DNA from: Lagopus muta
Lineage: Eukaryota > Chordata > Aves > Galliformes > Phasianidae
Assembly: GCF_023343835.1 (NCBI RefSeq)
Contig: NW_026040168.1
Coordinates: 62,001-126,000, forward strand
Direction of reading: 5' to 3'
Length of the DNA: 64,000 nt
Made by a program: the position numbers and the translations under genes
Notes under the pieces: model-generated
The model's database searches: none
What the model was told of the DNA's origin: nothing
What the model saw: only the letters and a program-made list of their open reading frames with translations
Shown: positions 1-64,000 of the stretch, in pieces
How positions within the stretch are numbered: the first letter of the stretch is position 1
Layout: each line of letters starts with the position of its first letter

Positions 1-1750
1 GTCTTTCTTGTAGTGAGGGGCCCAAAACTGAACGCAGTACTCGAGGTGCGGCCTCACCCGGGCCGAGTACAGAGGGATGATCACCTCCCTAGTCCTGCTG
101 ACTGCACGATTTGTGATCCAAGCCAGGATGCCGTTGGCCTTCTTGGCCCCCTGGGCACGCTGCTGGCTCGTGTTCAGGCGGCTGTTGACTAATGCCCCCA
201 GAACCGTTTCCTCGGTGCAGCTTTCCAGCCACCCTTCCCCGAGCCCATAGCGTTGCATGAGGTTGTTGTGAGCAAAGTGCGGGACCTGGCGCTTGGTCTC
301 GTTGAAGCTCCTACAATTGTCCTCAGCCAAGCGATCCAGCCTATCCGGATCCCTGCGTAGGGCCTTCCTACCCTCAGGCAGATCAGCCCTTCCTCCCAAC
401 ATGGTGTCATCTGCAACCTTCCTGAGAGTGCGCTCAATCCCCTCGTCCAGATCACCAACCAAGATATTGAACAGGACCGGCTCAAATGCTGGCCCCCTGG
501 GGAACACCGCTGGCGACCACCGCCAGCTGGACTGAACTCCATTCACCACCACTCTCTGGGCCCGGCCGTCCAGCCAGGTTTTTACCCGGCAGAGTACGCC
601 TGCCCAAGCCGTGGGCTGCCATCTTCTCTGGGAGAATACCGTGGGAGACAGAATCAAAGGCTTCACTGAAGTCTAGGTAGACGACATCCACAGCCTTTGC
701 CTCATCCACTAGGCGGGTCACCTGGTCGTAGAAGGAGATCGGGTCGGTCAAGCAGGACCTGTCTTTAAGGGACCCGCGCTGGCTAGGCCCGGTCCCCTGG
801 TTGTCCCGCACACGCCCTGTGATGTCGCTCCGGGTGATCTGCTCCACGAGCTTCCTCAATACCGAGGTCAGGCTGACAGGCCTGTAGTTCCCCGGATCCT
901 CCATCCGACCCTTCTTGTAGGTGGGCGTCTGTCTCGCTCCAGCTATCGGTAGCGAGATGGTTCGTTATATGCGTATACCCGACGTGAGATTAAGACTCAG
1001 AAAGGAGCCAACTGTTTGCCCAACCAGTTTATTGTGAAAGGTTTTGGTTAGCTAGGCCTGGGGATGGGAGGTGGGACGAAGAAAGCAATAGCAAAAAGAC
1101 AGAAAAGAAAAGCGAGGATTTGTTACAGGAACGCAGAGATTGTTACCACCGCAGTGTCACAATGTTTCATGAGTCTGGTTGGCAGCGGGGGTGGGGGGTG
1201 CAGGTTCTCTTTCTCGGTCGATCACAGGCGGAAGGAAAACACAACAAGGGAATAGCGCGCACAAAGTTTCGGCAGACTCCATACGTATATATACTGTCTG
1301 GCTCTCCTTGGCTTGCTCATCGTAAGGGCACGTCCAGCACAGGTGCAACAGTCAGAACAGACAGAAGTAAAGAAGGCACTGGGAATTGAGGGGCGTTTAT
1401 TCCGCTCCGCGGCCCCGTCTTCCAGCTCAGGGGGCTGAGTACCCTGAGGATAGCTGGTCTGACTGTTAAAGACAGAAGTGAAGAGGGCATTGAGAACTTC
1501 AGCCTTTTCCTCCTCCTTGGTGGTGACGTTCCCCACCGCATCGAATAAAGCAGGGAGATTCTCCTTGGCCCTCCTCTTGCTATTAATATGTTCATAAAAA
1601 CAATGTTTTAATCGTCTCGAGCAACGGTGGCCACATTAAGGTCTCGCTGGGCTTTTGCCCGTCTAATTTTCTCCCTGCGTATTCTAGCAACATCCTTGCA
1701 CTCTTCCCGAGTTGCCTGTCCCTTCTTGCGAAGATGGCACACTCCTGGCC
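1..1750 (-). mobile_element. CR1 LINE fragment, unit 1 (left end cut by window)
   Basis: The minus strand encodes pieces of the CR1 ORF2 reverse transcriptase. From the right edge: a KKGQATREE...REKIRRAKAQ segment (to about 1608), GNVTTKEEEKAEVLNALFTS (about 1536-1390), then after an LTR-like interruption the RT core EDPGNYRPVSLTSV (904 downward), the catalytic YLDFSEAFD block and SGVPQG (near 490). RT continues in another frame with [12 protein letters not shown] and the VADD catalytic pair. The reading frame changes at least near SGVPQG and around the interruption, so it cannot encode a working enzyme. The 5' end of the element is missing (right edge about 1750, judged by loss of recognisable CR1 protein), as is about 65 residues between the 5' part and the RT core. 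It lies head to head with HINTW. Confidence 0.92.
930..1350 (-). mobile_element. LTR-like insert inside CR1, unit 1
   Basis: About 420 bp separate two CR1 protein blocks and carry no CR1 homology. Read on the minus strand the piece begins TGTTG, has a TATATATA box near 1288-1300, an AATAAA signal at 1033-1028 and ends in ACA at 930, an order that fits a solitary retroviral-type LTR (short U3, R, ~80-100 bp U5). Only a 3-bp GAC match flanks it, so a target duplication is not convincing. No internal coding region is present and the family is not recognised. It predates the array expansion, because every unit has it at the same place. It could instead be unrelated promoter-like DNA brought in by recombination. 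Confidence 0.4.
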
Positions 1751-1839
1751 TGCCCGGCCAATACGCGGTCATTCGACGGGAGGGATCGGCACCAAAAAGC
1801 CCCCAGCGCGTTTGAGGAGGAGCCGATAAGGGCAATCCC

Positions 1840-2203
1840 TAATACCCGGGGCCTGTTCTGCAGGCCTCGTTTGGCCGCCGCAGGGGCGCCGCACTTACAG
1901 GGCACAGCTTCCCTTCGCGGAGGCGCCCTCCCGCTCCCCCACGTCGCATCCCCGCGCGCCCGGAGGCGCGCGCAAAGTCCCTGAGCCCCGATAAGCACCG
2001 GGCCGACGGGAGCGGAGCCGCCAACAGGGCGGGGACAAGCGTAAAGGGCACGCGAGACAGCCAACCGAGGCGCTCGAACGGCCGGCGGCGCTCCGTCGGC
2101 CCAATGAGCGCCGCCGAGGGCCGGGCCGGGCCGAGCCGAGCCGAGCCGAGCCGAGAGGGGGAGGTTCGCGGCTGAGGGAGTGTTGTAGCGAGCGCGCGCC
2201 GTC
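1840..2203 (+). promoter_or_regulatory. CpG-rich TATA-less promoter of HINTW copy 1
   Basis: GC- and CpG-rich DNA immediately upstream of the start codon continues into exon 1 and the beginning of intron 1 (to about 2700), as in a housekeeping CpG island. It has a GC box (GGGCGGGG, 2027-2034), a CCAAT box of NF-Y type (CCAATGAG from 2101, 103 nt before the ATG) and a (CCGAG)5 pentamer run at 2131-2155. No TATA box is visible. The transcription start cannot be placed. Stretch 1751-1839 between the CR1 edge and this region holds nothing recognisable. Confidence 0.6.
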
Positions 2204-4526
2204 ATGGCCGGCGGGATGGTTAGGTCGCCGGCCGCCCGGCGCAGTGGCGCCGCTCTCTTCGGAAAAGTCGGCCGCCAGGAGTTCTCCGCCAACGTTATCC
2301 GCGAGAAGAGGAGGAGCCGTTGTGGACGAGGAGGTAGCCGCGGCGTTGCCGTGCGTTGTGCGATTCTTCCCTTGCCCCCCCTTCCCACCCCTCCCCCACC
2401 CTAGCGCGCTCGCCCGCCCGCCCTCTGGAACGAGCGCCCGTTGCGGTGCCGGCGAGTGCGGCGGGGCGAGCGGCGACGTTGCCGCCGGGCGGGCGGACGG
2501 GCCTTTCTGGCCGCTGATGCTCGCTACTGCCGCGCCTCCTCTAAAACCCGGCGCTCCTTCGGTGCCACGGGGCTGCCGTGGCGCGTACTGGCTTGCTGGT
2601 GCCGCCTGGCTCGCCTAGCTTCCCAGCGCCCCCGTGTGGTGTGCGCGCGTGTGTAGAGGCGGGCGTGTGACGCTGAAGCGCTTGGTGGCAGTCGCGGGCG
2701 CTTGCCGCGCGCGATATCTATCAGCCCTTTGGCGCTGCTAGTCGTGCTAGTTGCATTAGAATTAGTTGACCATTGGGATTAGTTGGCCGTTTCCTACAGG
2801 TCGGTGGTATTCCCGTGTGCAAGGCGATAACCTTTGCGTCGATTTGGAAGTGTCTGACGTAGAGCCAGCCTCACCGCACTAATCCGGAACGTTCTTTCGC
2901 CTGAGTACGCGGTGTTCTTGAGGACAGAGAGTCAACCCGGCCTCAGTCGGGATAACCCCAGGTTCTTAGTAAATGCCTTGGTCAAAAGTAGGATAGGAAG
3001 GCGATATTTGGCCATAACTGAAGGATGGTGAGCCACCGTTTGCCGCCTGAGTGGTTAAGCGGGGTCTTAATAAGAGAGTGAAATAAGCGCAAATGGAGGT
3101 GGTTTGGTTTGGGTTTAAAATCGCTCCGTGCTCGTAGCAGCAGGAGCCTGTGAAAACGTGTTTTGTGGATAGAAGGGAGAGGACTTTGCCAATTCAAAGA
3201 TCACTTAGGAAGAATCGCCGTGTTGTCTTGCGTTTGGGGTACGAGTTCAGTGGGGCGTAGCGATCTGCTTAAGCTATTGCCTTTCTCCGGAGCCAACCCC
3301 GTTTTAACCGCGTACTCTTCTTCCTCCAGTGCCTTGTGTTCCGTGATGTTTCAACGCAAGCTCCTATGCTTTTTCCTAGCCGCTCGCGACAAGGCCGTTG
3401 TGAGGTTGTCCGAAGCAGAAGATTCTGGCGCACCTGTAAAGACCGTGGAAGCTTTCTGTACACCGAACGGTGCCTGTAAGTGGTACGTAATTTAGTAGGC
3501 GCTGTCCCGTGGCCTCGTTTCCTCTAGATGTTGCAAAGAGGCACAGTAGGCTATTTGGTGTTTCCCGACACCGTAGTCTTTTGCCTCTAGCTTGTGACGG
3601 AGCTGAGCGTTTTGACTAAGGGTAGCGAGAGAAAGCGATGCTCATTTCTGGGTGCGTGCTTGTAGTGCAAAATGCAGTGCTGTTTGGAAGTATGGCCCGA
3701 TGCCTGTTTTCAGGGTTTCCCGACAGTGGTACTTGCTCAAATGCGGAGAAGAGGGCTTGGGGTTTTGAGCAGGTCGGAGGCGAGGAAGGGGAAAGCTGTC
3801 TGAGGGGTGCTGGATGTTTCATTTTCAGCTATAGAAGTCAAGTTGGATGGCTTTTGCGTGGGCTCGCAAAGCCTACGTCGAGTTTTTCTTTTCTGCCAGA
3901 ATGACTTACGTTGCCCGAAGATATAATGGGGGGCTGGAACCCCGAGACAAATCTGGCTACTGTGCCCGATTTGTAGTCCGTCACTGTCTAGCTGGGGGTG
4001 GGGAGGGGGTTAAAAAAAAAGAAAAAGAAGTAAAAAAACGATGGCAAGTTCCCATAGCTGCCCCTCCCCCCATTGTGCATAATCGGTCTTTGTAACTTTG
4101 CTTAGAATGTGTCAGTTGCAGAAAGGCGGAAATTTGAAGAGCAGCGCTTGAATGGCGAAGAACTAGTTCACCGTGTTCTGTGGATGGTTCTTTGCTCACC
4201 TTCCTTCGCTTCCTGCCCTCTCCGCTCTTCTTTGTGTTGTAGCACGCTACGTTACGTAACGTTATTTCCCCCTCCAGCTTCACAGGCGTTTGATGATTGT
4301 TGGCGAGAAGTGTGCTGCTAACCTGGGCCTGACCGATGGATTCCGGATGGCTGTGAGATACCCCCCCTCAGGCCCTTCCGACTACCGCACGCGTCTCTGT
4401 ATTCTGGGTGGCCGTCAGTTGGGCCAGCCTCCCGGGGAAGACGTTTGCACCGCAGGAGTTGCTGCACGCGTACGGATCGCCACTGAATGGATTTCACGTG
4501 TCGCCCGTCAGTCTAGCCTCCGTTGA
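2204..4526 (+). CDS. HINTW: HINTW copy 1, W-linked HINT1 paralog lacking the histidine triad (3 exons)
   Basis: HINT1 proteins are small HIT-family purine nucleoside phosphoramidases; HINTW is the diverged female-specific avian copy, thought from chicken work to have lost catalysis and perhaps to act by pairing with HINT1. Exon 1 starts at ATG 2204; residues 18-34 (LFGKVGRQEFSANVIRE) align with HINT1 IFGKIIRKEIPA.II.E. Exon 2 starts at 3330 after a pyrimidine-rich tract and encodes CLVFRDVSTQAP, then an arginine-rich stretch, to 3475 (donor GTAAGT). Exon 3 (4286-4526) encodes RLMIVGEKCAANLGLTDGFRM, then RTRLCILGGRQLGQPPG where HINT1 has HVHLHVLGGRQ...PPG, then a ~29-residue tail absent from HINT1. 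The exon 1 donor is unsettled: phase-compatible GTs follow 2344 or 2350 (giving 175 or 177 residues), while the HINT1-like donor after 2333 gives a 48-residue stub. Exon 2 codon 13 is Met. Intron 1 has the long (17-bp plus) form. Confidence 0.85.
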
Positions 4527-4589
4527 CATAGAATTGGTTCTGGTGGGTGCCTGTGGAGGGTAATGAAAAGCTTTGCGCAGCATTTGCAC

Positions 4590-4595
4590 AATAAA
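4590..4595 (+). promoter_or_regulatory. HINTW polyadenylation signal, copy 1
   Basis: Canonical AATAAA 64 nt after the HINTW stop codon. The same signal is kept at the same distance in every copy: 10353, 16099, 21845, 27592, 33357, 39102, 44847, 50592, 56337 and 62097 (first bases). A short 3' UTR is therefore expected. Confidence 0.75.
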
Positions 4596-4599
4596 GATG

Positions 4600-5480
4600 G
4601 AGCACGGAGATATCATCTCTGTCTCGCGTGTCTTACTGATGGAAATGGTCCTGCAAGTTAAAACGGTGGGTCTCCGTCTCCCAAAGATAATATAGGATGT
4701 GCCGTGTGTTTGAGGCCTTGCCGTCTTCCCCCAGCTTCCAAATGAAAGGGCGTGGGTTTTATCGCGTAACAGCAGCATCGACAAGCGGCAGGCGTAGAAT
4801 TATAGAGGAATAAGGTTGGAAGAAAGCTTCCAGATATCATCAGTCGTACGGCCCTGTCCCGAGGCCGAGCAAACGCTACCTGCATGATTGCTGTCCGGTG
4901 CTCGTCAGCCTGTTCTTAACCCATCTCGAAGCTTTGCCGCCGCTTCCGCTTTCTTTTCAGTCGCGGATTTTGCGACGTGGAGAATTAGTTTCTCCCACAG
5001 GAACTTTCCCAAATGGAAAAGACTTTGTGATGCTCGAGACGGCAATTGTCGCGCTTCTGCTGTCTTTGATATTCGGCTGCCCTTCTCCATTTTTCATTTT
5101 TCATACAAACAAAGCATTAAAAAAAAAAAACCCAAAAAACGTAGCATTGTTCCATAACCGGAAGGAGGGGCACTACAGGCACCGTCAGGCTCTAACGTGT
5201 AATCACGTCTCGTGCTTTGTTAGGCCTCTGGCTTTGCTTTAGTCTTTGTTGAATTGCGATTGCATTCAAGGCTGACTGGAGTGGGGGAGTGTCAAAATGC
5301 TAATAGATATTTGCATTAAAAGTTGAATACTTGAAACTCGCCGAGTGAAATTATTGTGTGGCCGTTCCTCAAAGAATCTTGATTTGTCAGCAGTAGATCC
5401 GCTTGCGGGACTGGCGATCGCAGCTGTGAATGACTCTGAATTAAACCGTTTGAAGAAGCGGAATGAAACAACTTGTTACG
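4600..5480. other. Unassigned spacer between HINTW 3' end and next CR1 edge
   Basis: About 880 bp with no recognised gene or element. It holds a long A run followed by CCCAAAAAAC near 5119-5141 whose length and bases vary between units (for example CCCC or CTCC in place of CCC). Open frames of up to 114 codons cross it but show no family resemblance and run through the A tract. The equivalent spacers are 10363-11243, 16109-16989, 21855-22735, 27602-28482, 33367-34247, 39112-39992, 44857-45737, 50602-51482, 56347-57227 and 62107-62987. Confidence 0.5.
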
Positions 5481-7513
5481 TTTTTCCTAATATCCAACCT
5501 GAAGCTCCCCCCCGGCGCAGCTGACGGCCGTTACCTCTTGTCCCACCGCTAGTTACCTGGGAGAAGCGGCCAACCCTCACCTCGCTACAACCACCTTTCG
5601 GGTAGTTGTAAAGAGGCGATAAGGTCTCTCTCTCTGCCCTGAGCCTCCCCTTCTCCAGACAAAACAATCCTAGCTCCCTCAGCCGCTACCCATAGGTCTT
5701 GTGCTCCAGTCCCTTCACCAGCTTGGTTGCCCTCCTCCTCTGGACACGCTCCGGAGCCTCAACGTCTTTCTTGTAGTGAGGGGCCCAAAACTGAACGCAG
5801 TACTCGAGGTGCGGCCTCACCCGGGCCGAGTACAGAGGGATGATCACCTCCCTAGTCCTGCTGACTGCACGATTTGTGATCCAAGCCAGGATGCCGTTGG
5901 CCTTCTTGGCCCCCTGGGCACGCTGCTGGCTCGTGTTCAGGCGGCTGTTGACTAATGCCCCCAGAACCGTTTCCTCGGTGCAGCTTTCCAGCCACCCTTC
6001 CCCGAGCCCATAGCGTTGCATGAGGTTGTTGTGAGCAAAGTGCGGGACCTGGCGCTTGGTCTCGTTGAAGCTCCTACAATTGGCCTCAGCCAAGCGATCC
6101 AGCCTATCCGGATCCCTGCGTAGGGCCTTCCTACCCTCAGGCAGATCAGCCCTTCCTCCCAACATGGTGTCATCTGCAACCTTCCTGAGAGTGCGCTCAA
6201 TCCCCTCGTCCAGATCACCAACCAAGATATTGAACAGGACCGGCTCAAATGCTGGCCCCCTGGGGAACACCGCTGGCGACCACCGCCAGCTGGACTGAAC
6301 TCCATTCACCACCACTCTCTGGGCCCGGCCGTCCAGCCAGGTTTTTACCCGGCAGAGTACGCCTGCCCAAGCCGTGGGCTGCCATCTTCTCTGGGAGAAT
6401 ACCGTGGGAGACAGAATCAAAGGCTTCACTGAAGTCTAGGTAGACGACATCCACAGCCTTTGCCTCATCCACTAGGCGGGTCACCTGGTCGTAGAAGGAG
6501 ATCGGGTCGGTCAAGCAGGACCTGTCTTTAAGGGACCCGCGCTGGCTAGGCCCGGTCCCCTGGTTGTCCCGCACACGCCCTGTGATGTCGCTCCGGGTGA
6601 TCTGCTCCACGAGCTTCCTCAATACCGAGGTCAGGCTGACAGGCCTGTAGTTCCCCGGATCCTCCATCCGACCCTTCTTGTAGGTGGGCGTCTGTCTCGC
6701 TCCAGCTATCGGTAGCGAGATGGTTCGTTATATGCGTATACCCGACGTGAGATTAAGACTCAGAAAGGAGCCAACTGTTTGCCCAACCAGTTTATTGTGA
6801 AAGGTTTTGGTTAGCTAGGCCTGGGGATGGGAGGTGGGACGAAGAAAGCAATAGCAAAAAGACAGAAAAGAAAAGCGAGGATTTGTTACAGGAACGCAGA
6901 GATTGTTACCACCGCAGTGTCACAATGTTTCATGAGTCTGGTTGGCAGCGGGGGTGGGGGGTGCAGGTTCTCTTTCTCGGTCGATCACAGGCGGAAGGAA
7001 AACACAACAAGGGAATAGCGCGCACAAAGTTTCGGCAGACTCCATACGTATATATACTGTCTGGCTCTCCTTGGCTTGCTCATCGTAAGGGCACGTCCAG
7101 CACAGGTGCAACAGTCAGAACAGACAGAAGTAAAGAAGGCACTGGGAATTGAGGGGCGTTTATTCCGCTCCGCGGCCCCGTCTTCCAGCTCAGGGGGCTG
7201 AGTACCCTGAGGATAGCTGGTCTGACTGTTAAAGACAGAAGTGAAGAGGGCATTGAGAACTTCAGCCTTTTCCTCCTCCTTGGTGGTGACGTTCCCCACC
7301 GCATCGAATAAAGCAGGGAGATTCTCCTTGGCCCTCCTCTTGCTATTAATATGTTCATAAAAACAATGTTTTAATCGTCTCGAGCAACGGTGGCCACATT
7401 AAGGTCTCGCTGGGCTTTTGCCCGTCTAATTTTCTCCCTGCGTATTCTAGCAACATCCTTGCACTCTTCCCGAGTTGCCTGTCCCTTCTTGCGAAGATGG
7501 CACACTCCTGGCC
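5481..7513 (-). mobile_element. CR1 LINE fragment, unit 2 (complete example)
   Basis: First full view of the element: 2033 bp. The 3' part of ORF2 runs from the VADD block (about 6260-5686: [16 protein letters not shown], then [19 protein letters not shown] and ERVQRR) into a third frame at 5667-5481 with CLEKGRLR...YPKGGCSEV...[14 protein letters not shown] and a last GWILGK/LDIRK piece. Homology stops at about 5481, before the ORF2 C-terminus and the CR1 3' UTR with its usual short tail repeat. Both ends of the LINE are therefore missing, so the piece was captured by rearrangement rather than being a simple 5'-truncated insertion ending at this point. RT core frame: 6667-6245. Confidence 0.93.
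6693..7113 (-). mobile_element. LTR-like insert, unit 2
   Basis: Same position and content as in unit 1, with TATATATA and AATAAA on the minus strand. No difference of note from unit 1. Confidence 0.4.
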
Positions 7514-7602
7514 TGCCCGGCCAATACGCGGTCATTCGACGGGAGGGATCGGCACCAAAAAGCCCCCAGCGCGTTTGAGGAGGAGCCGATAAGGGCAATC
7601 CC

Positions 7603-7966
7603 TAATACCCGGGGCCTGTTCTGCAGGCCTCGTTTGGCCGCCGCAGGGGCGCCGCACTTACAGGGCACAGCTTCCCTTCGCGGAGGCGCCCTCCCGCTCC
7701 CCCACGTCGCATCCCCGCGCGCCCGGAGGCGCGCGCAAAGTCCCTGAGCCCCGATAAGCACCGGGCCGACGGGAGCGGAGCCGCCAACAGGGCGGGGACA
7801 AGCGTAAAGGGCACGCGAGACAGCCAACCGAGGCGCTCGAACGGCCGGCGGCGCTCCGTCGGCCCAATGAGCGCCGCCGAGGGCCGGGCCGGGCCGAGCC
7901 GAGCCGAGCCGAGCCGAGAGGGGGAGGTTCGCGGCTGAGGGAGTGTTGTAGCGAGCGCGCGCCGTC
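7603..7966 (+). promoter_or_regulatory. HINTW promoter, copy 2
   Basis: CpG-rich, TATA-less. CCAAT at 7864-7868, GC box at 7790-7797, (CCGAG)5 at 7894-7918. Confidence 0.55.
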
Positions 7967-10289
7967 ATGGCCGGCGGGATGGTTAGGTCGCCGGCCGCCC
8001 GGCGCAGTGGCGCCGCTCTCTTCGGAAAAGTCGGCCGCCAGGAGTTCTCCGCCAACGTTATCCGCGAGAAGAGGAGGAGCCGTTGTGGACGAGGAGGTAG
8101 CCGCGGCGTTGCCGTGCGTTGTGCGATTCTTCCCTTGCCCCCCCTTCCCACCCCTCCCCCACCCTAGCGCGCTCGCCCGCCCGCCCTCTGGAACGAGCGC
8201 CCGTTGCGGTGCCGGCGAGTGCGGCGGGGCGAGCGGCGACGTTGCCGCCGGGCGGGCGGACGGGCCTTTCTGGCCGCTGATGCTCGCTACTGCCGCGCCT
8301 CCTCTAAAACCCGGCGCTCCTTCGGTGCCACGGGGCTGCCGTGGCGCGTACTGGCTTGCTGGTGCCGCCTGGCTCGCCTAGCTTCCCAGCGCCCCCGTGT
8401 GGTGTGCGCGCGTGTGTAGAGGCGGGCGTGTGACGCTGAAGCGCTTGGTGGCAGTCGCGGGCGCTTGCCGCGCGCGATATCTATCAGCCCTTTGGCGCTG
8501 CTAGTCGTGCTAGTTGCATTAGAATTAGTTGACCATTGGGATTAGTTGGCCGTTTCCTACAGGTCGGTGGTATTCCCGTGTGCAAGGCGATAACCTTTGC
8601 GTCGATTTGGAAGTGTCTGACGTAGAGCCAGCCTCACCGCGCTAATCCGGAACGTTCTTTCGCCTGAGTACGCGGTGTTCTTGAGGACAGAGAGTCAACC
8701 CGGCCTCAGTCGGGATAACCCCAGGTTCTTAGTAAATGCCTTGGTCAAAAGTAGGATAGGAAGGCGATATTTGGCCATAACTGAAGGATGGTGAGCCACC
8801 GTTTGCCGCCTGAGTGGTTAAGCGGGGTCTTAATAAGAGAGTGAAATAAGCGCAAATGGAGGTGGTTTGGTTTGGGTTTAAAATCGCTCCGTGCTCGTAG
8901 CAGCAGGAGCCTGTGAAAACGTGTTTTGTGGATAGAAGGGAGAGGACTTTGCCAATTCAAAGATCACTTAGGAAGAATCGCCGTGTTGTCTTGCGTTTGG
9001 GGTACGAGTTCAGTGGGGCGTAGCGATCTGCTTAAGCTATTGCCTTTCTCCGGAGCCAACCCCGTTTTAACCGCGTACTCTTCTTCCTCCAGTGCCTTGT
9101 GTTCCGTGATGTTTCAACGCAAGCTCCTATGCTTTTTCCTAGCCGCTCGCGACAAGGCCGTTGTGAGGTTGTCCGAAGCAGAAGATTCTGGCGCACCTGT
9201 AAAGACCGTGGAAGCTTTCTGTACACCGAACGGTGCCTGTAAGTGGTACGTAATTTAGTAGGCGCTGTCCCGTGGCCTCGTTTCCTCTAGATGTTGCAAA
9301 GAGGCACAGTAGGCTATTTGGGGTTTCCCGACACCGTAGTCTTTTGCCTCTAGCTTGTGACGGAGCTGAGCGTTTTGACTAAGGGTAGCGAGAGAAAGCG
9401 ATGCTCATTTCTGGGTGCGTGCTTGTAGTGCAAAATGCAGTGCTGTTTGGAAGTATGGCCCGATGCCTGTTTTCAGGGTTTCCCGACAGTGGTACTTGCT
9501 CAAATGCGGAGAAGAGGGCTTGGGGTTTTGAGCAGGTCGGAGGCGAGGAAGGGGAAAGCTGTCTGAGGGGTGCTGGATGTTTCATTTTCAGCTATAGAAG
9601 TCAAGTTGGATGGCTTTTGCGTGGGCTCGCAAAGCCTACGTCGAGTTTTTCTTTTCTGCCAGAATGACTTACGTTGCCCGAAGATATAATGGGGGGCTGG
9701 AACCCCGAGACAAATCTGGCTACTGTGCCCGATTTGTAGTCCGTCACTGTCTAGCTGGGGGTGGGGAGGGGGTTAAAAAAAAAGAAAAAGAAGTAAAAAA
9801 ACGATGGCAAGTTCCCATAGCTGCCCCTCCCCCCATTGTGCATAATCGGTCTTTGTAACTTTGCTTAGAATGTGTCAGTTGCAGAAAGGCGGAAATTTGA
9901 AGAGCAGCGCTTGAATGGCGAAGAACTAGTTCACCGTGTTCTGTGGATGGTTCTTTGCTCACCTTCCTTCGCTTCCTGCCCTCTCCGCTCTTCTTTGTGT
10001 TGTAGCACGCTACGTTACGTAACGTTATTTCCCCCTCCAGCTTCACAGGCGTTTGATGATTGTTGGCGAGAAGTGTGCTGCTAACCTGGGCCTGACCGAT
10101 GGATTCCGGATGGCTGTGAGATACCCCCCCTCAGGCCCTTCCGACTACCGCACGCGTCTCTGTATTCTGGGTGGCCGTCAGTTGGGCCAGCCTCCCGGGG
10201 AAGACGTTTGCACCGCAGGAGTTGCTGCACGCGTACGGATCGCCACTGAATGGATTTCACGTGTCGCCCGTCAGTCTAGCCTCCGTTGA
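7967..10289 (+). CDS. HINTW: HINTW copy 2
   Basis: Exon 1 from ATG 7967 (phase-compatible donors after 8107 or 8113), exon 2 9093-9238, exon 3 10049-10289. Coding sequence matches copy 1, including Met at exon 2 codon 13 and the ACT codon in exon 3 that only copies 1 and 2 have. Intron 1 has the long form. Introns differ from copy 1 at single bases only. Confidence 0.85.
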
Positions 10290-11243
10290 CATAGAATTGG
10301 TTCTGGTGGGTGCCTGTGGAGGGTAATGAAAAGCTTTGCGCAGCATTTGCACAATAAAGATGGAGCACGGAGATATCATCTCTGTCTCGCGTGTCTTACT
10401 GATGGAAATGGTCCTGCAAGTTAAAACGGTGGGTCTCCGTCTCCCAAAGATAATATAGGATGTGCCGTGTGTTTGAGGCCTTGCCGTCTTCCCCCAGCTT
10501 CCAAATGAAAGGGCGTGGGTTTTATCGCGTAACAGCAGCATCGACAAGCGGCAGGCGTAGAATTATAGAGGAATAAGGTTGGAAGAAAGCTTCCAGATAT
10601 CATCAGTCGTACGGCCCTGTCCCGAGGCCGAGCAAACGCTACCTGCATGATTGCTGTCCGGTGCTCGTCAGCCTGTTCTTAACCCATCTCGAAGCTTTGC
10701 CGCCGCTTCCGCTTTCTTTTCAGTCGCGGATTTTGCGACGTGGAGAATTAGTTTCTCCCACAGGAACTTTCCCAAATGGAAAAGACTTTGTGATGCTCGA
10801 GACGGCAATTGTCGCGCTTCTGCTGTCTTTGATATTCGGCTGCCCTTCTCCATTTTTCATTTTTCATACAAACAAAGCATTAAAAAAAAAAAACCCAAAA
10901 AACGTAGCATTGTTCCATAACCGGAAGGAGGGGCACTACAGGCACCGTCAGGCTCTAACGTGTAATCACGTCTCGTGCTTTGTTAGGCCTCTGGCTTTGC
11001 TTTAGTCTTTGTTGAATTGCGATTGCATTCAAGGCTGACTGGAGTGGGGGAGTGTCAAAATGCTAATAGATATTTGCATTAAAAGTTGAATACTTGAAAC
11101 TCGCCGAGTGAAATTATTGTGTGGCCGTTCCTCAAAGAATCTTGATTTGTCAGCAGTAGATCCGCTTGCGGGACTGGCGATCGCAGCTGTGAATGACTCT
11201 GAATTAAACCGTTTGAAGAAGCGGAATGAAACAACTTGTTACG

Positions 11244-13276
11244 TTTTTCCTAATATCCAACCTGAAGCTCCCCCCCGGCGCAGCTGACGGCCGTTACCTC
11301 TTGTCCCACCGCTAGTTACCTGGGAGAAGCGGCCAACCCTCACCTCGCTACAACCACCTTTCGGGTAGTTGTAAAGAGGCGATAAGGTCTCTCTCTCTGC
11401 CCTGAGCCTCCCCTTCTCCAGACAAAACAATCCCAGCTCCCTCAGCCGCTACCCATAGGTCTTGTGCTCCAGTCCCTTCACCAGCTTGGTTGCCCTCCTC
11501 CTCTGGACACGCTCCGGAGCCTCAACGTCTTTCTTGTAGTGAGGGGCCCAAAACTGAACGCAGTACTCGAGGTGCGGCCTCACCCGGGCCGAGTACAGAG
11601 GGATGATCACCTCCCTAGTCCTGCTGACTGCACGATTTGTGATCCAAGCCAGGATGCCGTTGGCCTTCTTGGCCCCCTGGGCACGCTGCTGGCTCGTGTT
11701 CAGGCGGCTGTTGACTAATGCCCCCAGAACCGTTTCCTCGGTGCAGCTTTCCAGCCACCCTTCCCCGAGCCCATAGCGTTGCATGAGGTTGTTGTGAGCA
11801 AAGTGCGGGACCTGGCGCTTGGTCTCGTTGAAGCTCCTACAATTGGCCTCAGCCAAGCGATCCAGCCTATCCGGATCCCTGCGTAGGGCCTTCCTACCCT
11901 CAGGCAGATCAGCCCTTCCTCCCAACATGGTGTCATCTGCAACCTTCCTGAGAGTGCGCTCAATCCCCTCGTCCAGATCACCAACCAAGATATTGAACAG
12001 GACCGGCTCAAATGCTGGCCCCCTGGGGAACACCGCTGGCGACCACCGCCAGCTGGACTGAACTCCATTCACCACCACTCTCTGGGCCCGGCCGTCCAGC
12101 CAGGTTTTTACCCGGCAGAGTACGCCTGCCCAAGCCGTGGGCTGCCATCTTCTCTGGGAGAATACCGTGGGAGACAGAATCAAAGGCTTCACTGAAGTCT
12201 AGGTAGACGACATCCACAGCCTTTGCCTCATCCACTAGGCGGGTCACCTGGTCGTAGAAGGAGATCGGGTCGGTCAAGCAGGACCTGTCTTTAAGGGACC
12301 CGCGCTGGCTAGGCCCGGTCCCCTGGTTGTCCCGCACACGCCCTGTGATGTCGCTCCGGGTGATCTGCTCCACGAGCTTCCTCAATACCGAGGTCAGGCT
12401 GACAGGCCTGTAGTTCCCCGGATCCTCCATCCGACCCTTCTTGTAGGTGGGCGTCTGTCTCGCTCCAGCTATCGGTAGCGAGATGGTTCGTTATATGCGT
12501 ATACCCGACGTGAGATTAAGACTCAGAAAGGAGCCAACTGTTTGCCCAACCAGTTTATTGTGAAAGGTTTTGGTTAGCTAGGCCTGGGGATGGGAGGTGG
12601 GACGAAGAAAGCAATAGCAAAAAGACAGAAAAGAAAAGCGAGGATTTGTTACAGGAACGCAGAGATTGTTACCACCGCAGTGTCACAATGTTTCATGAGT
12701 CTGGTTGGCAGCGGGGGTGGGGGGTGCAGGTTCTCTTTCTCGGTCGATCACAGGCGGAAGGAAAACACAACAAGGGAATAGCGCGCACAAAGTTTCGGCA
12801 GACTCCATACGTATATATACTGTCTGGCTCTCCTTGGCTTGCTCATGGTAAGGGCACGTCCAGCACAGGTGCAACAGTCAGAACAGACAGAAGTAAAGAA
12901 GGCACTGGGAATTGAGGGGCGTTTATTCCGCTCCGCGGCCCCATCTTCCAGCTCAGGGGGCTGAGTACCCTGAGGATAGCTGGTCTGACTGTTAAAGACA
13001 GAAGTGAAGAGGGCATTGAGAACTTCAGCCTTTTCCTCCTCCTTGGTGGTGACGTTCCCCACCGCATCGAATAAAGCAGGGAGATTCTCCTTGGCCCTCC
13101 TCTTGCTATTAATATGTTCATAAAAACAATGTTTTAATCGTCTCGAGCAACGGTGGCCACATTAAGGTCTCGCTGGGCTTTTGCCCGTCTAATTTTCTCC
13201 CTGCGTATTCTAGCAACATCCTTGCACTCTTCCCGAGTTGCCTGTCCCTTCTTGCGAAGATGGCACACTCCTGGCC
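11244..13276 (-). mobile_element. CR1 LINE fragment, unit 3
   Basis: 2033 bp with the same ends, missing segment and frame breaks as unit 2. RT core frame 12430-12008. Confidence 0.93.
12456..12876 (-). mobile_element. LTR-like insert, unit 3
   Basis: As in unit 2 apart from a C to G change (plus strand) at 12847 that is shared only with unit 8. Confidence 0.4.
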
Positions 13277-13365
13277 TGCCCGGCCAATACGCGGTCATTC
13301 GACGGGAGGGATCGGCACCAAAAAGCCCCCAGCGCGTTTGAGGAGGAGCCGATAAGGGCAATCCC

Positions 13366-13729
13366 TAATACCCGGGGCCTGTTCTGCAGGCCTCGTTTGG
13401 CCGCCGCAGGGGCGCCGCACTTACAGGGCACAGCTTCCCTTCGCGGAGGCGCCCTCCCGCTCCCCCACGTCGCATCCCCGCGCGCCCGGAGGCGCGCGCA
13501 AAGTCCCTGAGCCCCGATAAGCACCGGGCCGACGGGAGCGGAGCCGCCAACAGGGCGGGGACAAGCGTAAAGGGCACGCGAGACAGCCAACCGAGGCGCT
13601 CGAACGGCCGGCGGCGCTCCGTCGGCCCAATGAGCGCCGCCGAGGGCCGGGCCGGGCCGAGCCGAGCCGAGCCGAGCCGAGAGGGGGAGGTTCGCGGCTG
13701 AGGGAGTGTTGTAGCGAGCGCGCGCCGTC
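13366..13729 (+). promoter_or_regulatory. HINTW promoter, copy 3
   Basis: CpG-rich, TATA-less. CCAAT at 13627-13631, GC box at 13553-13560, (CCGAG)5 at 13657-13681. Confidence 0.55.
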
Positions 13730-16035
13730 ATGGCCGGCGGGATGGTTAGGTCGCCGGCCGCCCGGCGCAGTGGCGCCGCTCTCTTCGGAAAAGTCGGCCG
13801 CCAGGAGTTCTCCGCCAACGTTATCCGCGAGAAGAGGAGGAGCCGTTGTGGACGAGGAGGTAGCCGCGGCGTTGCCGTGCGTTGTGCGATTCTTCCCTTG
13901 CCCCCCCTTCCCACCCCTCCCCCACCCTAGCGCGCTCGCCCGCCCGCCCTCTGGAACGAGCGCCCGTTGCGGTGCCGGCGAGTGCGGCGGGGCGAGCGGC
14001 GACGTTGCCGCCGGGCGGGCGGACGGGCCTTTCTGGCCGCTGATGCTCGCTACTGCCGCGCCTCCTCTAAAACCCGGCGCTCCTTCGGTGCCACGGGGCT
14101 GCCGTGGCGCGTACTGGCTTGCTGGTGCCGCCTGGCTCGCCTAGCTTCCCAGCGCCCCCGTGTGGTGTGCGCGCGTGTGTAGAGGCGGGCGTGTGACGCT
14201 GAAGCGCTTGGTGGCAGTCGCGGGCGCTTGCCGCGCGCGATATCTATCAGCCCTTTGGCGCTGCTAGTCGTGCTAGTTCCATTAGAATTAGTTGACCGTT
14301 TCCTACAGGTCGGTGGTATTCCCGTGTGCAAGGCGATAACCTTTGCGTCGATTTGGAAGTGTCTGACGTAGAGCCAGCCTCACCGCGCTAATCCGGAACG
14401 TTCTTTCGCCTGAGTACGCGGTGTTCTTGAGGACAGAGAGTCAACCCGGCCTCAGTCGGGATAACCCCAGGTTCTTAGTAAATGCCTTGGTCAAAAGTAG
14501 GATAGGAAGGCGATATTTGGCCATAACTGAAGGATGGTGAGCCACCGTTTGCCGCCTGAGTGGTTAAGCGGGGTCTTAATAAGAGAGTGAAATAAGCGCA
14601 AATGGAGGTGGTTTGGTTTGGGTTTAAAATCGCTCCGTGCTCGTAGCAGCAGGAGCCTGTGAAAACGTGTTTTGTGGATAGAAGGGAGAGGACTTTGCCA
14701 ATTCAAAGATCACTTAGGAAGAATCGCCGTGTTGTCTTGCGTTTGGGGTACGAGTTCAGTGGGGCATAGCGATCTGCTTAAGCTATTGCCTTTCTCCGGA
14801 GCCAACCCCGTTTTAACCGTGTACTCTTCTTCCTCCAGTGCCTTGTGTTCCGTGATGTTTCAACGCAAGCTCCTACGCTTTTTCCTAGCCGCTCGCGACA
14901 AGGCCGTTGTGAGGTTGTCCGAAGCAGAAGATTCTGGCGCACCTGTAAAGACCGTGGAAGCTTTCTGTACACCGAACGGTGCCTGTAAGTGGTACGTAAT
15001 TTAGTAGGCGCTGTCCCGTGGCCTCGTTTCCTCTTGATGTTGCAAAGAGGCACAGTAGGCTATTTGGGGTTTCCCGACACCGTAGTCTTTTGCCTCTAGC
15101 TTGTGACGGAGCTGAGCGTTTTGACTAAGGGTAGCGAGAGAAAGCGATGCTCATTTCTGGGTGCGTGCTTGTAGTGCAAAATGCAGTGCTGTTTGGAAGT
15201 ATGGCCCGATGCCTGTTTTCAGGGTTTCCCGACAGTGGTACTTGCTCAAATGCGGAGAAGAGGGCTTGGGGTTTTGAGCAGGTCGGAGGCGAGGAAGGGG
15301 AAAGCTGTCTGAGGGGTGCTGGATGTTTCATTTTCAGCTATAGAAGTCAAGTTGGATGGCTTTTGCGTGGGCTCGCAAAGCCTACGTCGAGTTTTTCTTT
15401 TCTGCCAGAATGACTTACGTTGCCCGAAGATATAATGGGGGGCTGGAACCCCGAGACAAATCTGGCTACTGTGCCCGATTTGTAGTCCGTCACTGTCTAG
15501 CTGGGGGTGGGGAGGGGGTTAAAAAAAAAAAAAAGAAGGAAAAAAAACGATGGCAAGTTCCCATAGCTGCCCCTCCCCCCATTGTGCATAATCCGTCTTT
15601 GTAACTTTGCTTGGAATGTGTCAGTTGCAGAAAGGCGGTAATTTGAAGAGCAGCGCTTGAATGGCGAAGAACTAGTTCACCGTGTTCTGTGGATGGTTCT
15701 TTGGTCGCCTTCCTTCGCTTCCTGCCCTCTCCGCTCTTCTTTGTGTTGTAGCACGCTACGTTACGTAACGTTATTTCCCCCTCCAGCTTCACAGGCGTTT
15801 GATGATTGTTGGCGAGAAGTGTGCTGCTAACCTGGGCCTGACCGATGGATTCCGGATGGCTGTGAGATACCCCCCCTCAGGCCCTTCCGACTACCGCACG
15901 CGTCTCTGTATTCTGGGTGGCCGTCAGTTGGGCCAGCCTCCCGGGGAAGACGTTTGCACCGCAGGAGTTGCTGCACGCGTACGGATCGCCACCGAATGGA
16001 TTTCACGTGTCGCCCGTCAGTCTAGCCTCCGTTGA
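13730..16035 (+). CDS. HINTW: HINTW copy 3
   Basis: Exon 1 from ATG 13730 (donors after 13870 or 13876), exon 2 14839-14984, exon 3 15795-16035. Exon 2 codon 13 is Thr. First copy with the short (17-bp minus) form of intron 1. Intron 2 has an A-tract form shared with copy 4. Confidence 0.85.
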
Positions 16036-16989
16036 TATAGAATTGGTTCTGGTGGGTGCCTGTGGAGGGTAATGAAAAGCTTTGCGCAGCATTTGCACAA
16101 TAAAGATGGAGCACGGAGATATCATCTCTGTCTCGCGTGTCTTACTGATGGAAATGGTCCTGCAAGTTAAAACGGTGGGTCTCCGTCTCCCAAAGATAAT
16201 ATAGGATGTGCCGTGTGTTTGAGGCCTTGCCGTCTTCCCCCAGCTTCCAAATGAAAGGGCGTGGGTTTTATCGCGTAACAGCAGCATCGACAAGCGGCAG
16301 GCGTAGAATTATAAAGGAATAAGGTTGGAAGAAAGCTTCCAGATATCATCAGTCGTACGGCCCTGTCCCGAGGCCGAGCAAACGCTACCTGCATGATTGC
16401 TGTCCGGTGCTCGTCAGCCTGTTCTTAACCCATCTCGAAGCTTTGCCGCCGCTTCCGCTTTCTTTTCAGTCGCGGATTTTGCGACGTGGAGAATTAGTTT
16501 CTCCCACAGGAACTTTCCCAAATGGAAAAGACTTTGTGATGCTCGAGACGGCAATTGTCGCGCTTCTGCTGTCTTTGATATTCGGCTGCCCTTCTCCATT
16601 TTTCATTTTTCATACAAACAAAGCATTAAAAAAAAAAACCCCAAAAAACGTAGCATTGTTCCATAACCGGAAGGAGGGGCACTACAGGCACCGTCAGGCT
16701 CTAACGTGTAATCACGTCTCGTGCTTTGTTAGGCCTCTGGCTTTGCTTTAGTCTTTGTTGAATTGCGATTGCATTCAAGGCTGACTGGAGTGGGGGAGTG
16801 TCAAAATGCTAATAGATATTTGCATTAAAAGTTGAATACTTGAAACTCGCCGAGTGAAATTATTGTGTGGCCGTTCCTCAAAGAATCTTGATTTGTCAGC
16901 AGTAGATCCGCTTGCGGGACTGGCGATCGCAGCTGTGAATGACTCTGAATTAAACCGTTTGAAGAAGCGGAATGAAACAACTTGTTACG

Positions 16990-53604: not shown

Positions 53605-53968
53605 TAATACCCGGGGCCTGTTCTGCAGGCCTCGTTTGGCCGCCGCAGGGGCGCCGCACTTACAGGGCACAGCTTCCCTTCGCGGAGGCGCCCTCCCGCT
53701 CCCCCACGTCGCATCCCCGCGCGCCCGGAGGCGCGCGCAAAGTCCCTGAGCCCCGATAAGCACCGGGCCGACGGGAGCGGAGCCGCCAACAGGGCGGGGA
53801 CAAGCGTAAAGGGCACGCGAGACAGCCAACCGAGGCGCTCGAACGGCCGGCGGCGCTCCGTCGGCCCAATGAGCGCCGCCGAGGGCCGGGCCGGGCCGAG
53901 CCGAGCCGAGCCGAGCCGAGAGGGGGAGGTTCGCGGCTGAGGGAGTGTTGTAGCGAGCGCGCGCCGTC
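53605..53968 (+). promoter_or_regulatory. HINTW promoter, copy 10
   Basis: CpG-rich, TATA-less. CCAAT at 53866-53870, GC box at 53792-53799, (CCGAG)5 at 53896-53920. Confidence 0.55.
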
Positions 53969-59260: not shown

Positions 59261-59349
59261 TGCCCGGCCAATACGCGGTCATTCGACGGGAGGGATCGGC
59301 ACCAAAAAGCCCCCAGCGCGTTTGAGGAGGAGTCGATAAGGGCAATCCC

Positions 59350-59713
59350 TAATACCCGGGGCCTGTTCTGCAGGCCTCGTTTGGCCGCCGCAGGGGCGCC
59401 GCACTTACAGGGCACAGCTTCCCTTCGCGGAGGCGCCCTCCCGCTCCCCCACGTCGCATCCCCGCGCGCCCGGAGGCGCGCGCAAAGTCCCTGAGCCCCG
59501 ATAAGCACCGGGCCGACGGGAGCGGAGCCGCCAACAGGGCGGGGACAAGCGTAAAGGGCACGCGAGACAGCCAACCGAGGCGCTCGAACGGCCGGCGGCG
59601 CTCCGTCGGCCCAATGAGCGCCGCCGAGGGCCGGGCCGGGCCGAGCCGAGCCGAGCCGAGCCGAGAGGGGGAGGTTCGCGGCTGAGGGAGTGTTGTAGCG
59701 AGCGCGCGCCGTC
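59350..59713 (+). promoter_or_regulatory. HINTW promoter, copy 11
   Basis: CpG-rich, TATA-less. CCAAT at 59611-59615, GC box at 59537-59544, (CCGAG)5 at 59641-59665. Confidence 0.55.
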
Positions 59714-62033
59714 ATGGCCGGCGGGATGGTTAGGTCGCCGGCCGCCCGGCGCAGTGGCGCCGCTCTCTTCGGAAAAGTCGGCCGCCAGGAGTTCTCCGCC
59801 AACGTTATCCGCGAGAAGAGGAGGAGCCGTTGTGGACGAGGAGGTAGCCGCGGCGTTGCCGTGCGTTGTGCGATTCTTCCCTTGCCCCCCCTTCCCACCC
59901 CTCCCCCACCCTAGCGCGCTCGCCCGCCCGCCCTCTGGAACGAGCGCCCGTTGCGGTGCCGGCGAGTGCGGCGGGGCGAGCGGCGACGTTGCCGCCGGGC
60001 GGGCGGACGGGCCTTTCTGGCCGCTGATGCTCGCTACTGCCGCGCCTCCTCTAAAACCCGGCGCTCCTTCGGTGCCACGGGGCTGCCGTGGCGCGTACTG
60101 GCTTGCTGGTGCCGCCTGGCTCGCCTAGCTTCCCAGCGCCCCCGTGTGGTGTGCGCGCGTGTGTAGAGGCGGGCGTGTGACGCTGAAGCGCTTGGTGGCA
60201 GTCGCGGGCGCTTGCCGCGCGCGATATCTATCAGCCCTTTGGCGCTGCTAGTCGTGCTAGTTCCATTAGAATTAGTTGACCATTGGGATTAGTTGGCCGT
60301 TTCCTACAGGTCGGTGGTATTCCCGTGTGCAAGGCGATAACCTTTGCGTCGATTTGGAAGTGTCTGACGTAGAGCCAGCCTCACCGCGCTAATCCGGAAC
60401 GTTCTTTCGCCTGAGTACGCGGTGTTCTTGAGGACAGAGTCAACCCGGCCTCAGTCGGGATAACCCCAGGTTCTTAGTAAATGCCTTGGTCAAAAGTAGG
60501 ATAGGAAGGCGATATTTGGCCATAACTGAAGGATGGTGAGCCACTGTTTGCCGCCTGAGTGGTTAAGCGGGGTCTTAATAAGAGAGTGAAATAAGCGCAA
60601 ATGAAGGTGGTTTGGTTTGGGTTTAAAATCGCTCCGTGCTCGTAGCAGCAGGAGCCTGTGAAAACGTGTTTTGTGGATAGAAGGGAGAGGACTTTGCCAA
60701 TTCAAAGATCACTTAGGAAGAATCGCCGTGTTGTCTTGCGTTTGGGGTACGAGTTCAGTGGGGCGTAGCGATCTGCTTAAGCTATTGCCTTTCTCCGGAG
60801 CCAACCCCGTTTTAACCGCGTACTCTTCTTCCTCCAGTGCCTTGCGTTCCGTGATGTTTCAACGCAAGCTCCTACGCTTTTTCCTAGCCGCTCGCGACAA
60901 GGCCGTTGTGAGGTTGTCCGAAGCAGAAGATTCTGGCGCACCTGTAAAGACCGTGGAAGCTTTCTGTACACCGAACGGTGCCTGTAAGTGGTACGTAATT
61001 TAGTAGGCGCTGTCCCGTGGCCTCGTTTCCTCTAGATGTTGCAAAGAGGCACAGTAGGCTATTTGGGGTTTCCCGACACCGTAGTCTTTTGCCTCTAGCT
61101 TGTGACGGAGCTGAGCGTTTTGACTAAGGGTAGCGAGAGAAAGCGATGCTCATTTCTGGGTGCGTGCTTGTAGTGCAAAATGCAGTGCTGTTTGGAAGTA
61201 TGGCCCGATGCCTGTTTTCAGGGTTTCCCGACAGTGGTACTTGCTCAAATGCGGAGAAGAGGGCTTGGGGTTTTGAGCAGGTCGGAGGCGAGGAAGGGGA
61301 AAGCTGTCTGAGGGGTGCTGGATGTTTCATTTTCAGCTATAGAAGTCAAGTTGGATGGCTTTTGCGTGGGCTCGCAAAGCCTACGTCGAGTTTTTCTTTT
61401 CTGCCAGAATGACTTACGTTGCCCGAAGATATAATGGGGGGCTGGAACCCCGAGACAAATCTGGCTACTGTGCCCGATTTGTAGTCCGTCACTGTCTAGC
61501 TGGGGGTGGGGAGGGGGTTAAAAAAAAAAAAAGATGGAAAAAAAACGATGGCAAGTTCCCATAGCTGCCCCTCCCCCCATTGTGCATAATCCGTCTTTGT
61601 AACTTTGCTTGGAATGTGTCAGTTGCAGAAAGGCAGTAATTTGAAAAGCAGCGCTTGAATGGCGAAGAACTAGTTCACCGTGTTCTGTGGATGGTTCTTT
61701 GCTCACCTTCCTTCGCTTCCTGCCCTCTCCGCTCTTCTTTGTGTTGTAGCACGCTACGTTACGTAACGTTATTTCCCCCTCCAGCTTCACAGGCGTTTGA
61801 TGATTGTTGGCGAGAAGTGTGCTGCTAACCTGGGCCTGACCGATGGATTCCGGATGGCTGTGAGATACCCCCCCTCAGGCCCTTCCGACTACCGCACGCG
61901 TCTCTGTATTCTGGGTGGCCGTCAGTTGGGCCAGCCTCCCGGGGAAGACGTTTGCACCGCAGGAGTTGCTGCACGCGTACGGATCGCCACCGAATGGATT
62001 TCACGTGTCGCCCGTCAGTCTAGCCTCCGTTGA
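59714..62033 (+). CDS. HINTW: HINTW copy 11
   Basis: Exon 1 from ATG 59714 (donors after 59854 or 59860), exon 2 60838-60983, exon 3 61793-62033. Exon 2 codon 3 is Ala (GCG) instead of Val, the residue HINT1 has there (CLAF). Intron 1 has the long form plus a private 2-bp loss near 60437 (GACAGAGTC for GACAGAGAGTC). It has more private single-base changes than copies 7-10. Confidence 0.85.
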
Positions 62034-62987
62034 CATAGAATTGGTTCTGGTGGGTGCCTGTGGAGGGTAATGAAAAGCTTTGCGCAGCATTTGCACAATA
62101 AAGATGGAGCACGGAGATATCATCTCTGTCACGCGTGTCTTACTGATGGAAATGGTCCTGCAAGTTAAAACGGTGGGTCTCCGTCTCCCAAAGATAATAT
62201 AGGATGTGCCGTGTGTTTGAGGCCTTGCCGTCTTCCCCCAGCTTCCAAATGAAAGGGCGTGGGTTTTATCGCGTAACAGCAGCATCGACAAGCGGCAGGC
62301 GTAGAATTATAGAGGAATAAGGTTGGAAGAAAGCTTCCAGATATCATCAGTCGTATGGCCCTGTCCCGAGGCCGAGCAAACGCTACCTGCATGATTGCTG
62401 TCCGGTGCTCGTCAGCCTGTTCTTAACCCATCTCGAAGCTTTGCCGCCGCTTCCGCTTTCTTTTCAGTCGCGGATTTTGCGACGTGGAGAATTAGTTTCT
62501 CCCACAGGAACTTTCCCAAATGGAAAAGACTTTGTGATGCTCGAGACGGCAATTGTCGCGCTTCTGCTGTCTTTGATATTCGGCTGCCCTTCTCCATTTT
62601 TCATTTTTCATACAAACAAAGCATTAAAAAAAAAAAACCCAAAAAACGTAGCATTGTTCCATAACCGGAAGGAGGGGCACTACAGGCACCGTCAGGCTCT
62701 AACGTGTAATCACATCTCGTGCTTTGTTAGGCCTCTGGCTTTGCTTTAGTCTTTGTTGAATTGCGATTGCATTCAAGGCTGACTGGAGTGGGGGAGTGTC
62801 AAAATGCTAATAGATATTTGCATTAAAAGTTGAATACTTGAAACTCGCCGAGTGAAATTATTGTGTGGCCGTTCCTCAAAGAATCTTCATTTGTCAGCAG
62901 TAGATCCGCTTGCGGGACTGGCAATCGCAGCTGTGAATGACTCTGAATTAAACCGTTTGAAGAAGCGGAATGAAACAACTTGTTACG

Positions 62988-64000
62988 TTTTTCCTAATAT
63001 CCAACCTGAAGCTCCCCCCCGGCGCAGCTGACGGCCGTTACCTCTTGTCCCACCGCTAGTTACCTGGGAGAAGCGGCCAACCCTCACCTCGCTACAACCA
63101 CCTTTCGGGTAGTTGTAAAGAGGCGATAAGGTCTCTCTCTCTGCCCTGAGCCTCCCCTTCTCCAGACAAAACAATCCCAGCTCCCTCAGCCGCTACCCAT
63201 AGGTCTTGTGCTCCAGTCCCTTCACCAGCCTGGTTGCCCTCCTCCTCTGGACACGCTCCGGAGCCTCAACGTCTTTCTTGTAGTGAGGGGCCCAAAACTG
63301 AACGCAGTACTCGAGGTGCGGCTTCACCCGGGCCGAGTACAGAGGGATGATCACCTCCCTAGTCCTGCTGACTGCACGATTTGTGATCCAAGCCAGGATG
63401 CCGTTGGCCTTCTTGGCCCCCTGGGCACGCTGCTGGCTCGTGTTCAGGCGGCTGTTGACTAATGCCCCCAGAACCGTTTCCTCTGTGCAGCTTTCCAGCC
63501 ACCCTGCCCAAGCCCGTAGCGTTGCATGAGGTTGTTGTGAGCAAAGTGCGGGACCTGGCGCTTGGTCTCGTTGAAGCTCCTACAATTGTCCTCAGCCGAG
63601 CGATCCAGCCTATCCGGATCCCTGCGTAGGGCCTTCCTACCCTCAGGCAGATCAGCCCTTCCTCCCAACATGGTGTCATCTGCAACCTTCCTGAGAGTGC
63701 GCTCAATCCCCTCGTCCAGATCACCAACCAAGATATTGAACAGGACCGGCTCAAATGCTGGCCCCCTGGGGAACACCGCTGGCGACCACCGCCAGCTGGA
63801 CTGAACTCCATTCACCACCACTCTCTGGGCCCGGCCGTCCAGCCAGGTTTTTACCCGGCAGAGTACGCCTGCCCAAGCCGTGGGCTGCCATCTTCTCTGG
63901 GAGAATACCGTGGGAGACAGAATCAAAGGCTTCACTGAAGTCTAGGTAGACGACATCCACAGCCTTTGCCTCATCCACTAGGCGGGTCACCTGGTCGTAG
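62988..64000 (-). mobile_element. CR1 LINE fragment, unit 12 (right end cut by window)
   Basis: The 3' half of the element, from the terminal LDIRK piece through VADD to the YLDFSEAFD block. It is more diverged than its siblings: a cluster of changes and a net 1-bp loss at about 63484-63525 adds a further frame change absent from units 1-11. The HINTW copy of this unit lies beyond the window. Confidence 0.9.

Follow-up and report, generated by a model that had tools for sequence, protein, structure and literature searches.

Ampliconic genes of the mammalian Y chromosome are sex-limited and multi-copy, are kept alike by gene conversion and have broken members, and some of their homogenised copies are intact. 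In birds the W gametolog of HINT1 is HINTW, for which a possible role as a female factor has been debated since 2000. The stretch described here is a segment of 64,000 nucleotides from the rock ptarmigan Lagopus muta (contig NW_026040168.1, designated C58 below; C58:62,001-126,000), which is called the window at its full length and holds tandem copies of a HINTW-like gene. In chicken, HINT1W lies in a unit of 5,648 bp that is repeated in tandem 52 times, in two clusters and with a GC content of 53.6% (PMC9974502); duck has a single HINTW copy (PMC7787181). The chicken HINTW protein is given as 130 amino acids with a leucine- and arginine-rich (Leu/Arg-rich) region (PMC12026566), and endogenous HINTW protein is stated not to have been demonstrated as of 2013 (PMC4053838).

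The window is quite probably the middle of a W-linked HINTW array that has been homogenised with a frameshifted allele. An amplicon of this kind is known, and what appears distinctive is that its homogenised copies are, by the gene model used, out of coding frame; in this respect it is unlike the Y ampliconic genes, every homogenised copy of the array being affected. It resembles the chicken array (PMC9974502) in its W linkage, the whole gene in each unit, the similar unit length (5,745-5,764 bp here), the raised GC content (55.7% here) and the presence of two clusters, but differs in copy number, with 24 copies and one truncated, one lone and nine divergent copies. The 130 amino acids, the missing histidine triad and the Leu/Arg-rich stretch of chicken HINTW (PMC12026566, PMC4053838) fit six of the nine divergent copies, unlike the array copies of the window with their 48-codon frame. 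With the Z-linked HINT1 the gene shares three exons, homologous splice sites and the conserved helix LMIVGxKCAANLGL; Z HINT1 has the HVHLH motif and matches the HIT profile at 6.1e-31, whereas no HIT match was obtained for the two divergent W open reading frames (ORFs) examined, and no frame is open in the array copies. Frame loss of this kind in HINTW was not found reported among the matches listed in searches of the open-licence literature, and HINTW does not occur in the rock ptarmigan assembly paper (PMC10320755).

Array structure and extent

The genome searched comprises 1,026,658,476 bases in 165 contigs. The window (positions 1-64,000, plus strand) consists of 11 head-to-tail units with a period of 5,745-5,764 bp (successively 5,763, 5,763, 5,746, 5,746, 5,748, 5,764, 5,745, 5,745, 5,745 and 5,745) and a pairwise identity of 99.48-99.93%. 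Each unit carries a three-exon HINT1-like gene on the plus strand, with an AATAAA site at its end, and a CR1-type remnant on the minus strand. The first-pass annotation of this DNA had described eleven consecutive copies in a long resolved array. Eleven units do follow each other at a regular period in the window, but the array overruns it at both ends and is longer than that count: in the stretches read (C58:186,001-206,000 lies outside them) it comprises 24 units with the gene and a 25th that is truncated and retains exons 1 and 2, at C58:23,727-163,264, which bears out the long resolved array.

A query of the genome with exon 3 gave 36 places, and all 36 candidates were scored. Twenty-four of these, at 99-100% identity, lie from C58:25,940 to 158,619; a lone copy of 100% identity lies at C58:258,636, and nine divergent copies (91-95%) from C58:218,364 to 248,112. 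The Z gene, on contig C59, is 73% identical, and a place on contig C3 79%. The nine divergent copies form a cluster at C58:215,848-248,667, 52 kb from the array. In a tree of the gene part, with the root placed at midpoint, the array and the lone copy are joined at 100/100 with the nine divergent copies outside, and the array without the lone copy is a weaker group (50/81).

Neighbouring array units differ by 4-59 bases, and most rare variants are found in the right-end units 18, 19, 23 and 24. To the left of the array, at a distance of 1.2 kb, there is a run of 23 N, and the copy number near that end may therefore be off.

W linkage

Six exons of the SPIN family were found in the genome, three on C58 and three on C59. 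Contig C59 (75.3 Mb) also holds an intact HINT1 with HVHLH at C59:51.51 Mb, and a search of the genome with the HIT profile PF01230 gave four matches, all on C59 and none on C58. CHD1-like matches were obtained on C59, C57, C13 and C23, and HNRNPK-like matches on C59 and C57. From these matches we read C59 as the Z chromosome and C58 and C57 as pieces of W. The W linkage proposed in the first-pass annotation is supported by the SPIN gametolog of C58 with its partner on C59, and by the intact HINT1 on the latter contig. That annotation had also considered the opposite case, a best match to an autosomal or Z-linked HINT1 locus; Z HINT1 was found to be a separate copy on another contig, 73% identical at exon 3, and the only autosomal match is the single retrocopy at 79%. 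A Z or autosomal origin of the array was rejected on these figures. They also tell against an artefact, that is, a mis-assembled stack of one locus or an array of Z or autosomal HINT1, for which the run of 23 N could be invoked; the units differ by ordered variants and indels, more at the right end, and such an artefact is hardly credible.

Identity of the gene

Three protein blocks had been named as marks of the gene, and each was found in 11 of 11 units at the unit period. The first reads CLVFRDVSTQAP in ten of the window copies and CLAFRDVSTQAP in one; the second, LMIVGEKCAANLGL, and the third, LGGRQLGQPPG, are present in all 11 units. The blocks were seen correctly, but by the gene model they would not make up one protein, as the first (CLxFxD..QAP) is out of frame with exon 3. 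The description of a HINT1-like gene without the histidine triad in each unit agrees with two results: exon 3 matches the human HINT1 chains of PDB (E ~6e-11) over HINT1 residues 75-126, with the triad region changed, and no H.H.H pattern with I, L, V or A as its next residue occurs in the six frames of the window. The exon frames of the window were unmatched by PF01230, as were the two spliced divergent W ORFs, Z HINT1 serving as the positive control.

The primers published for HINTW reverse transcription quantitative PCR (PMC11457736) have their sites in all 11 window copies, the forward primer exactly and the reverse primer with one mismatch, at a spacing of 272 bp in each copy; the published product is 272 bp in chick and quail and 187 bp in duck. 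One shuffled window, used as control, offered no better primer sites than ones with 3 and 4 mismatches. Against the window itself, the mismatches number 3 and 2 for the chicken HINTW primers of PMC2678266, 3 and 1 for a quail primer pair, and 7 and 4 for the pair designed for chicken Z HINT1. Published primer sites at the published spacing thus uphold the name HINTW, and from these fits and mismatches we take the window gene to be HINTW of the galliform type, identical to neither published sequence.

Gene model and reading frames

The W gene model takes its junctions from Z HINT1 and from the intronless HINTW-like retrocopy on C3, and the W splice junctions agree with both. In the second unit the coding part of exon 1 lies at 7967-8096 (plus strand, 130 nt, donor GAG|GTAGCC), exon 2 at 9093-9198 (plus strand, 106 nt) and exon 3 at 10041-10366 (plus strand, taken from the acceptor to the published HINTW primer and the AATAAA site at 10,353). 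Exon 1 is identical in all 11 window units, where it starts at 2204, 7967, 13730, 19476, 25222, 30970, 36734, 42479, 48224, 53969 and 59714. Exon 2 starts at 3330, 9093, 14839, 20585, 26331, 32096, 37843, 43588, 49333, 55078 and 60838, and exon 3 at 4278, 10041, 15787, 21533, 27280, 33045, 38790, 44535, 50280, 56025 and 61785. Exon 2 measures 106 nt in every one of the 34 W copies; exon 1 measures 125 nt in the nine divergent copies and 130 nt in the lone copy and all 24 copies of the array. In Z HINT1 the coding nt ahead of exon 3 number 111 and 105.

With the 125-nt exon 1 the frame is continuous, running from the HINT frame through a shifted Leu/Arg-rich stretch (exons 1-2) and back in the HINT frame to exon 3. 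The 5 extra nt in exon 1 of all 24 array copies reduce the product to 48 residues by the gene model: the frame reaches a TGA in exon 2 after 48 codons, in the lone copy as well. This premature TGA stands at the start of exon 2, where it overlaps an ATG (TGATG), 89 nt before the exon 2-3 junction. The presence of the 5 nt throughout the 24 array copies, and also in the diverged lone copy, suggests one origin before the present array. None of the 24 array copies has an open frame of 130 amino acids with the Leu/Arg-rich stretch, as against six of the nine divergent ones. In that cluster seven of nine frames are open (six of 130 amino acids, one of 159) and two have early stops. Eight of the divergent copies keep the stop after PPG; it has been lost from the remaining one, from the lone copy and throughout the array (24 of 24). 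In exon 2, the block CLVFRDVSTQAP corresponds to the old HINT frame, a reading that the 130-residue form leaves unused.

By this gene model the window copies would be HINTW-derived but not protein-coding HINTW. The first-pass annotation had each copy as a gene whose protein holds the three blocks, in an array of intact genes; neither claim is supported by the model, with the first block out of frame and a frameshift common to all copies (11 of 11 in the window, 24 of 24 in the array). An ordinary array of intact HINTW genes, for which one could cite the HINT1-similar blocks of 11 of 11 units and the comparable array of a comparable unit in chicken (PMC9974502), is very improbable: the 48 codons in 24 of 24 copies, with junctions backed by Z HINT1 and the retrocopy, and the first block out of frame with exon 3 contradict it unless exon 1 is spliced another way.

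For the divergent cluster, random substitution would leave 3.5 of nine frames open, and at least seven open frames were obtained in 1.7% of simulations. No gap event falls within the 398 coding nt of this cluster, as opposed to 36 within 2,952 non-coding nt. Across the array, the density of variable sites per kb is highest in exon 2 (84.9, with six of its nine sites belonging to one tract), followed by the 3' flank (46.3), the two introns (24.1 and 33.3), the coding part of exon 3 (23.8), the 5' flank (8.2) and exon 1 (7.7); the 80 nt of the 3' untranslated region (UTR) contain no variable site. Coding constraint on the array is not clear, and the gene start is quiet.

Several observations weigh against a frameless array beside a constrained cluster. 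The comparison with introns only (14 gap events in 1,838 nt) weakens the argument from absent indels, and the nine divergent copies are related, which makes the simulation of open frames optimistic. The amino-acid changes of the divergent cluster (75 of 111 unique, 79.4 expected, P 0.19) are not rarer than chance, and its constraint therefore rests on the open frames and the absent indels. Exon 1 and the 3' UTR of the array are nearly invariant (1 of 130 and 0 of 80 sites variable), which could be constraint. Also, splices that restore the frame are possible on paper, for example through a GAG acceptor 37 nt upstream of exon 2.

Such a splice from an alternative exon-2 acceptor is one way in which the array could still make HINTW protein, and a restart at TGATG, giving an N-terminally shortened form of 112 residues with the helix and the C-terminal part, is another; on balance this is unlikely. 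In one array copy 85 bare GT/AG donor-acceptor pairs give an open frame into exon 3, although the enumeration is no evidence of use and a divergent control copy yields nearly as many (63). The upstream acceptor, paired with the normal donor and preceded by a pyrimidine run, is GAG; conservation in Z HINT1 and use in the retrocopy speak for the usual acceptor. The lone copy and all but one of the 24 array copies have the downstream frame of 112 amino acids open, but TGATG is old HINT sequence, so that the overlap is probably due to chance, and one array copy is without it.

Homogenisation and proposed mechanism

Unit 22 (C58:144,347-150,098) and the truncated 25th unit (C58:161,595-163,264) share in exon 2 a tract of at least 24 bp in which six variants in a row match the type seen in divergent copies 3 and 4. 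This tract, common to both clusters, would most simply be due to conversion. The best-supported mechanism for the array is unequal exchange with gene conversion on a partnerless chromosome. In this scheme one HINTW unit would have gained 5 nt in exon 1, the frameshifted unit would have been amplified head to tail by unequal exchange, and gene conversion would have kept the units alike, so that one frameshifted allele now fills the array. Array transcripts would stop after 48 codons, 89 nt ahead of the last exon junction, and be expected targets of decay. The small divergent cluster, 52 kb away, is the only place where the conventional frame of 130 residues is open.

Of the 105 rare variants of the array, 75 are changes from G or C to A or T (S>W), 16 are the reverse (W>S) and 40 are CpG transitions. 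The array has nevertheless a GC content of 55.7%, and the observed/expected ratio of CpG is 0.88 in the unit vs 0.33 and 0.37 in two W flanks, as if such AT-ward changes were removed. The mean frequency of W>S variants is 0.296 (n 31) vs 0.166 for S>W (n 106; one-sided P 0.041), but is not above that of GC-neutral variants (0.293, n 27), and this direct test of GC-biased conversion is equivocal. Low methylation as the cause of the high CpG was rejected, given the 40 CpG transitions among the 105 rare variants.

The divergent copies differ on average by 18% in exon 1, by 11% in exon 2 and by 3-5% in the introns. Stretches of intron 2 and of both flanks are also high in divergence. The pattern in the nine-copy cluster looks like patchy homogenisation. 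Positive selection for the divergence of exons 1 and 2 in this older cluster was rejected, the silent sites being more divergent still (exon 1 pS 0.28, pN 0.16).

The array-wide frame loss bears on whether amplified HINTW makes protein at all. A bird with a whole homogenised array without the frame would, if the finding is true, be a natural test that parts copy number and transcription from protein. The resolved sequence indicates that on a sex-limited chromosome homogenisation can not only remove damage but also make it permanent. Tentatively, and at somewhat less than an even chance, the amplified array may be non-coding and persist for an effect of its repeats, RNA or chromatin, or for nothing, with any protein coming from the small older cluster and concerted evolution acting as a ratchet, not as repair.

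Putative CR1 remnant and retrocopy

The antisense element of the unit, which we take to be CR1 from features of its protein, contains a reverse-transcriptase piece at 482-964 on the minus strand (RVT_1, E 1.5e-10), one such piece per unit. The RVT_1 match on the minus strand, together with 12 exact occurrences in the window of a 39-nt stretch of this piece, confirms the antisense reverse-transcriptase fragment. Inspection of the sequence by eye revealed no 3' octamer tail of CR1, and no search of a repeat library was made. A 5' stub of the element at 1608-1838 (minus strand) adjoins the HINTW promoter; this part of the element is found in divergent units too: it precedes eight of the nine, all except the first, where no stub was detected, and another follows the last. 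With the same stub upstream of divergent units, the element therefore seems to predate the split of the array and divergent unit types. A segment of ~2.1 kb at 5193-7299 (minus strand; natural unit 3354-5460) with most of CR1 and ~0.3 kb of spacer is absent from the divergent units, and the fourth of these has a different CR1 piece in its place (C58:230,802-231,505). This piece has 54% protein identity to the array CR1 and is apparently another element. Insertion of CR1 as the origin of the array unit was rejected because of the stub at the divergent units; loss of the 2.1 kb or other duplication breakpoints fit better.

The retrocopy at C3:40,454,270-40,454,681 is a processed copy, with exons 1, 2 and 3 directly joined and with stops. 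It aligns with five W copies over 319-381 nt (identity 76-79%, scores 267-324) and with Z HINT1 over 224 nt (82% over that part, score 201). From these alignments and its HINTW-like start and end residues we take it to be a retrocopy of a HINTW transcript, although its higher identity to Z HINT1 over the shorter part calls for caution. It would be a move from W to an autosome, the contig being of autosome size. Retrocopies from W to autosomes are unusual in birds.

Other observations

The W contig starts with a CTCCT-rich simple repeat (C58:1-600), and a TTAGGG run is absent from its first 25 kb. Rfam gave no matches in positions 1-17,272 of the window, and no tRNA genes were found in positions 1-12,000. 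Two window units have a 17-bp tandem duplication in intron 1 (TRF; 31519-31551 and 60263-60295). In the alignment of 24 units the 17-bp stretch of intron 1 is present in 11 units and absent from 13.

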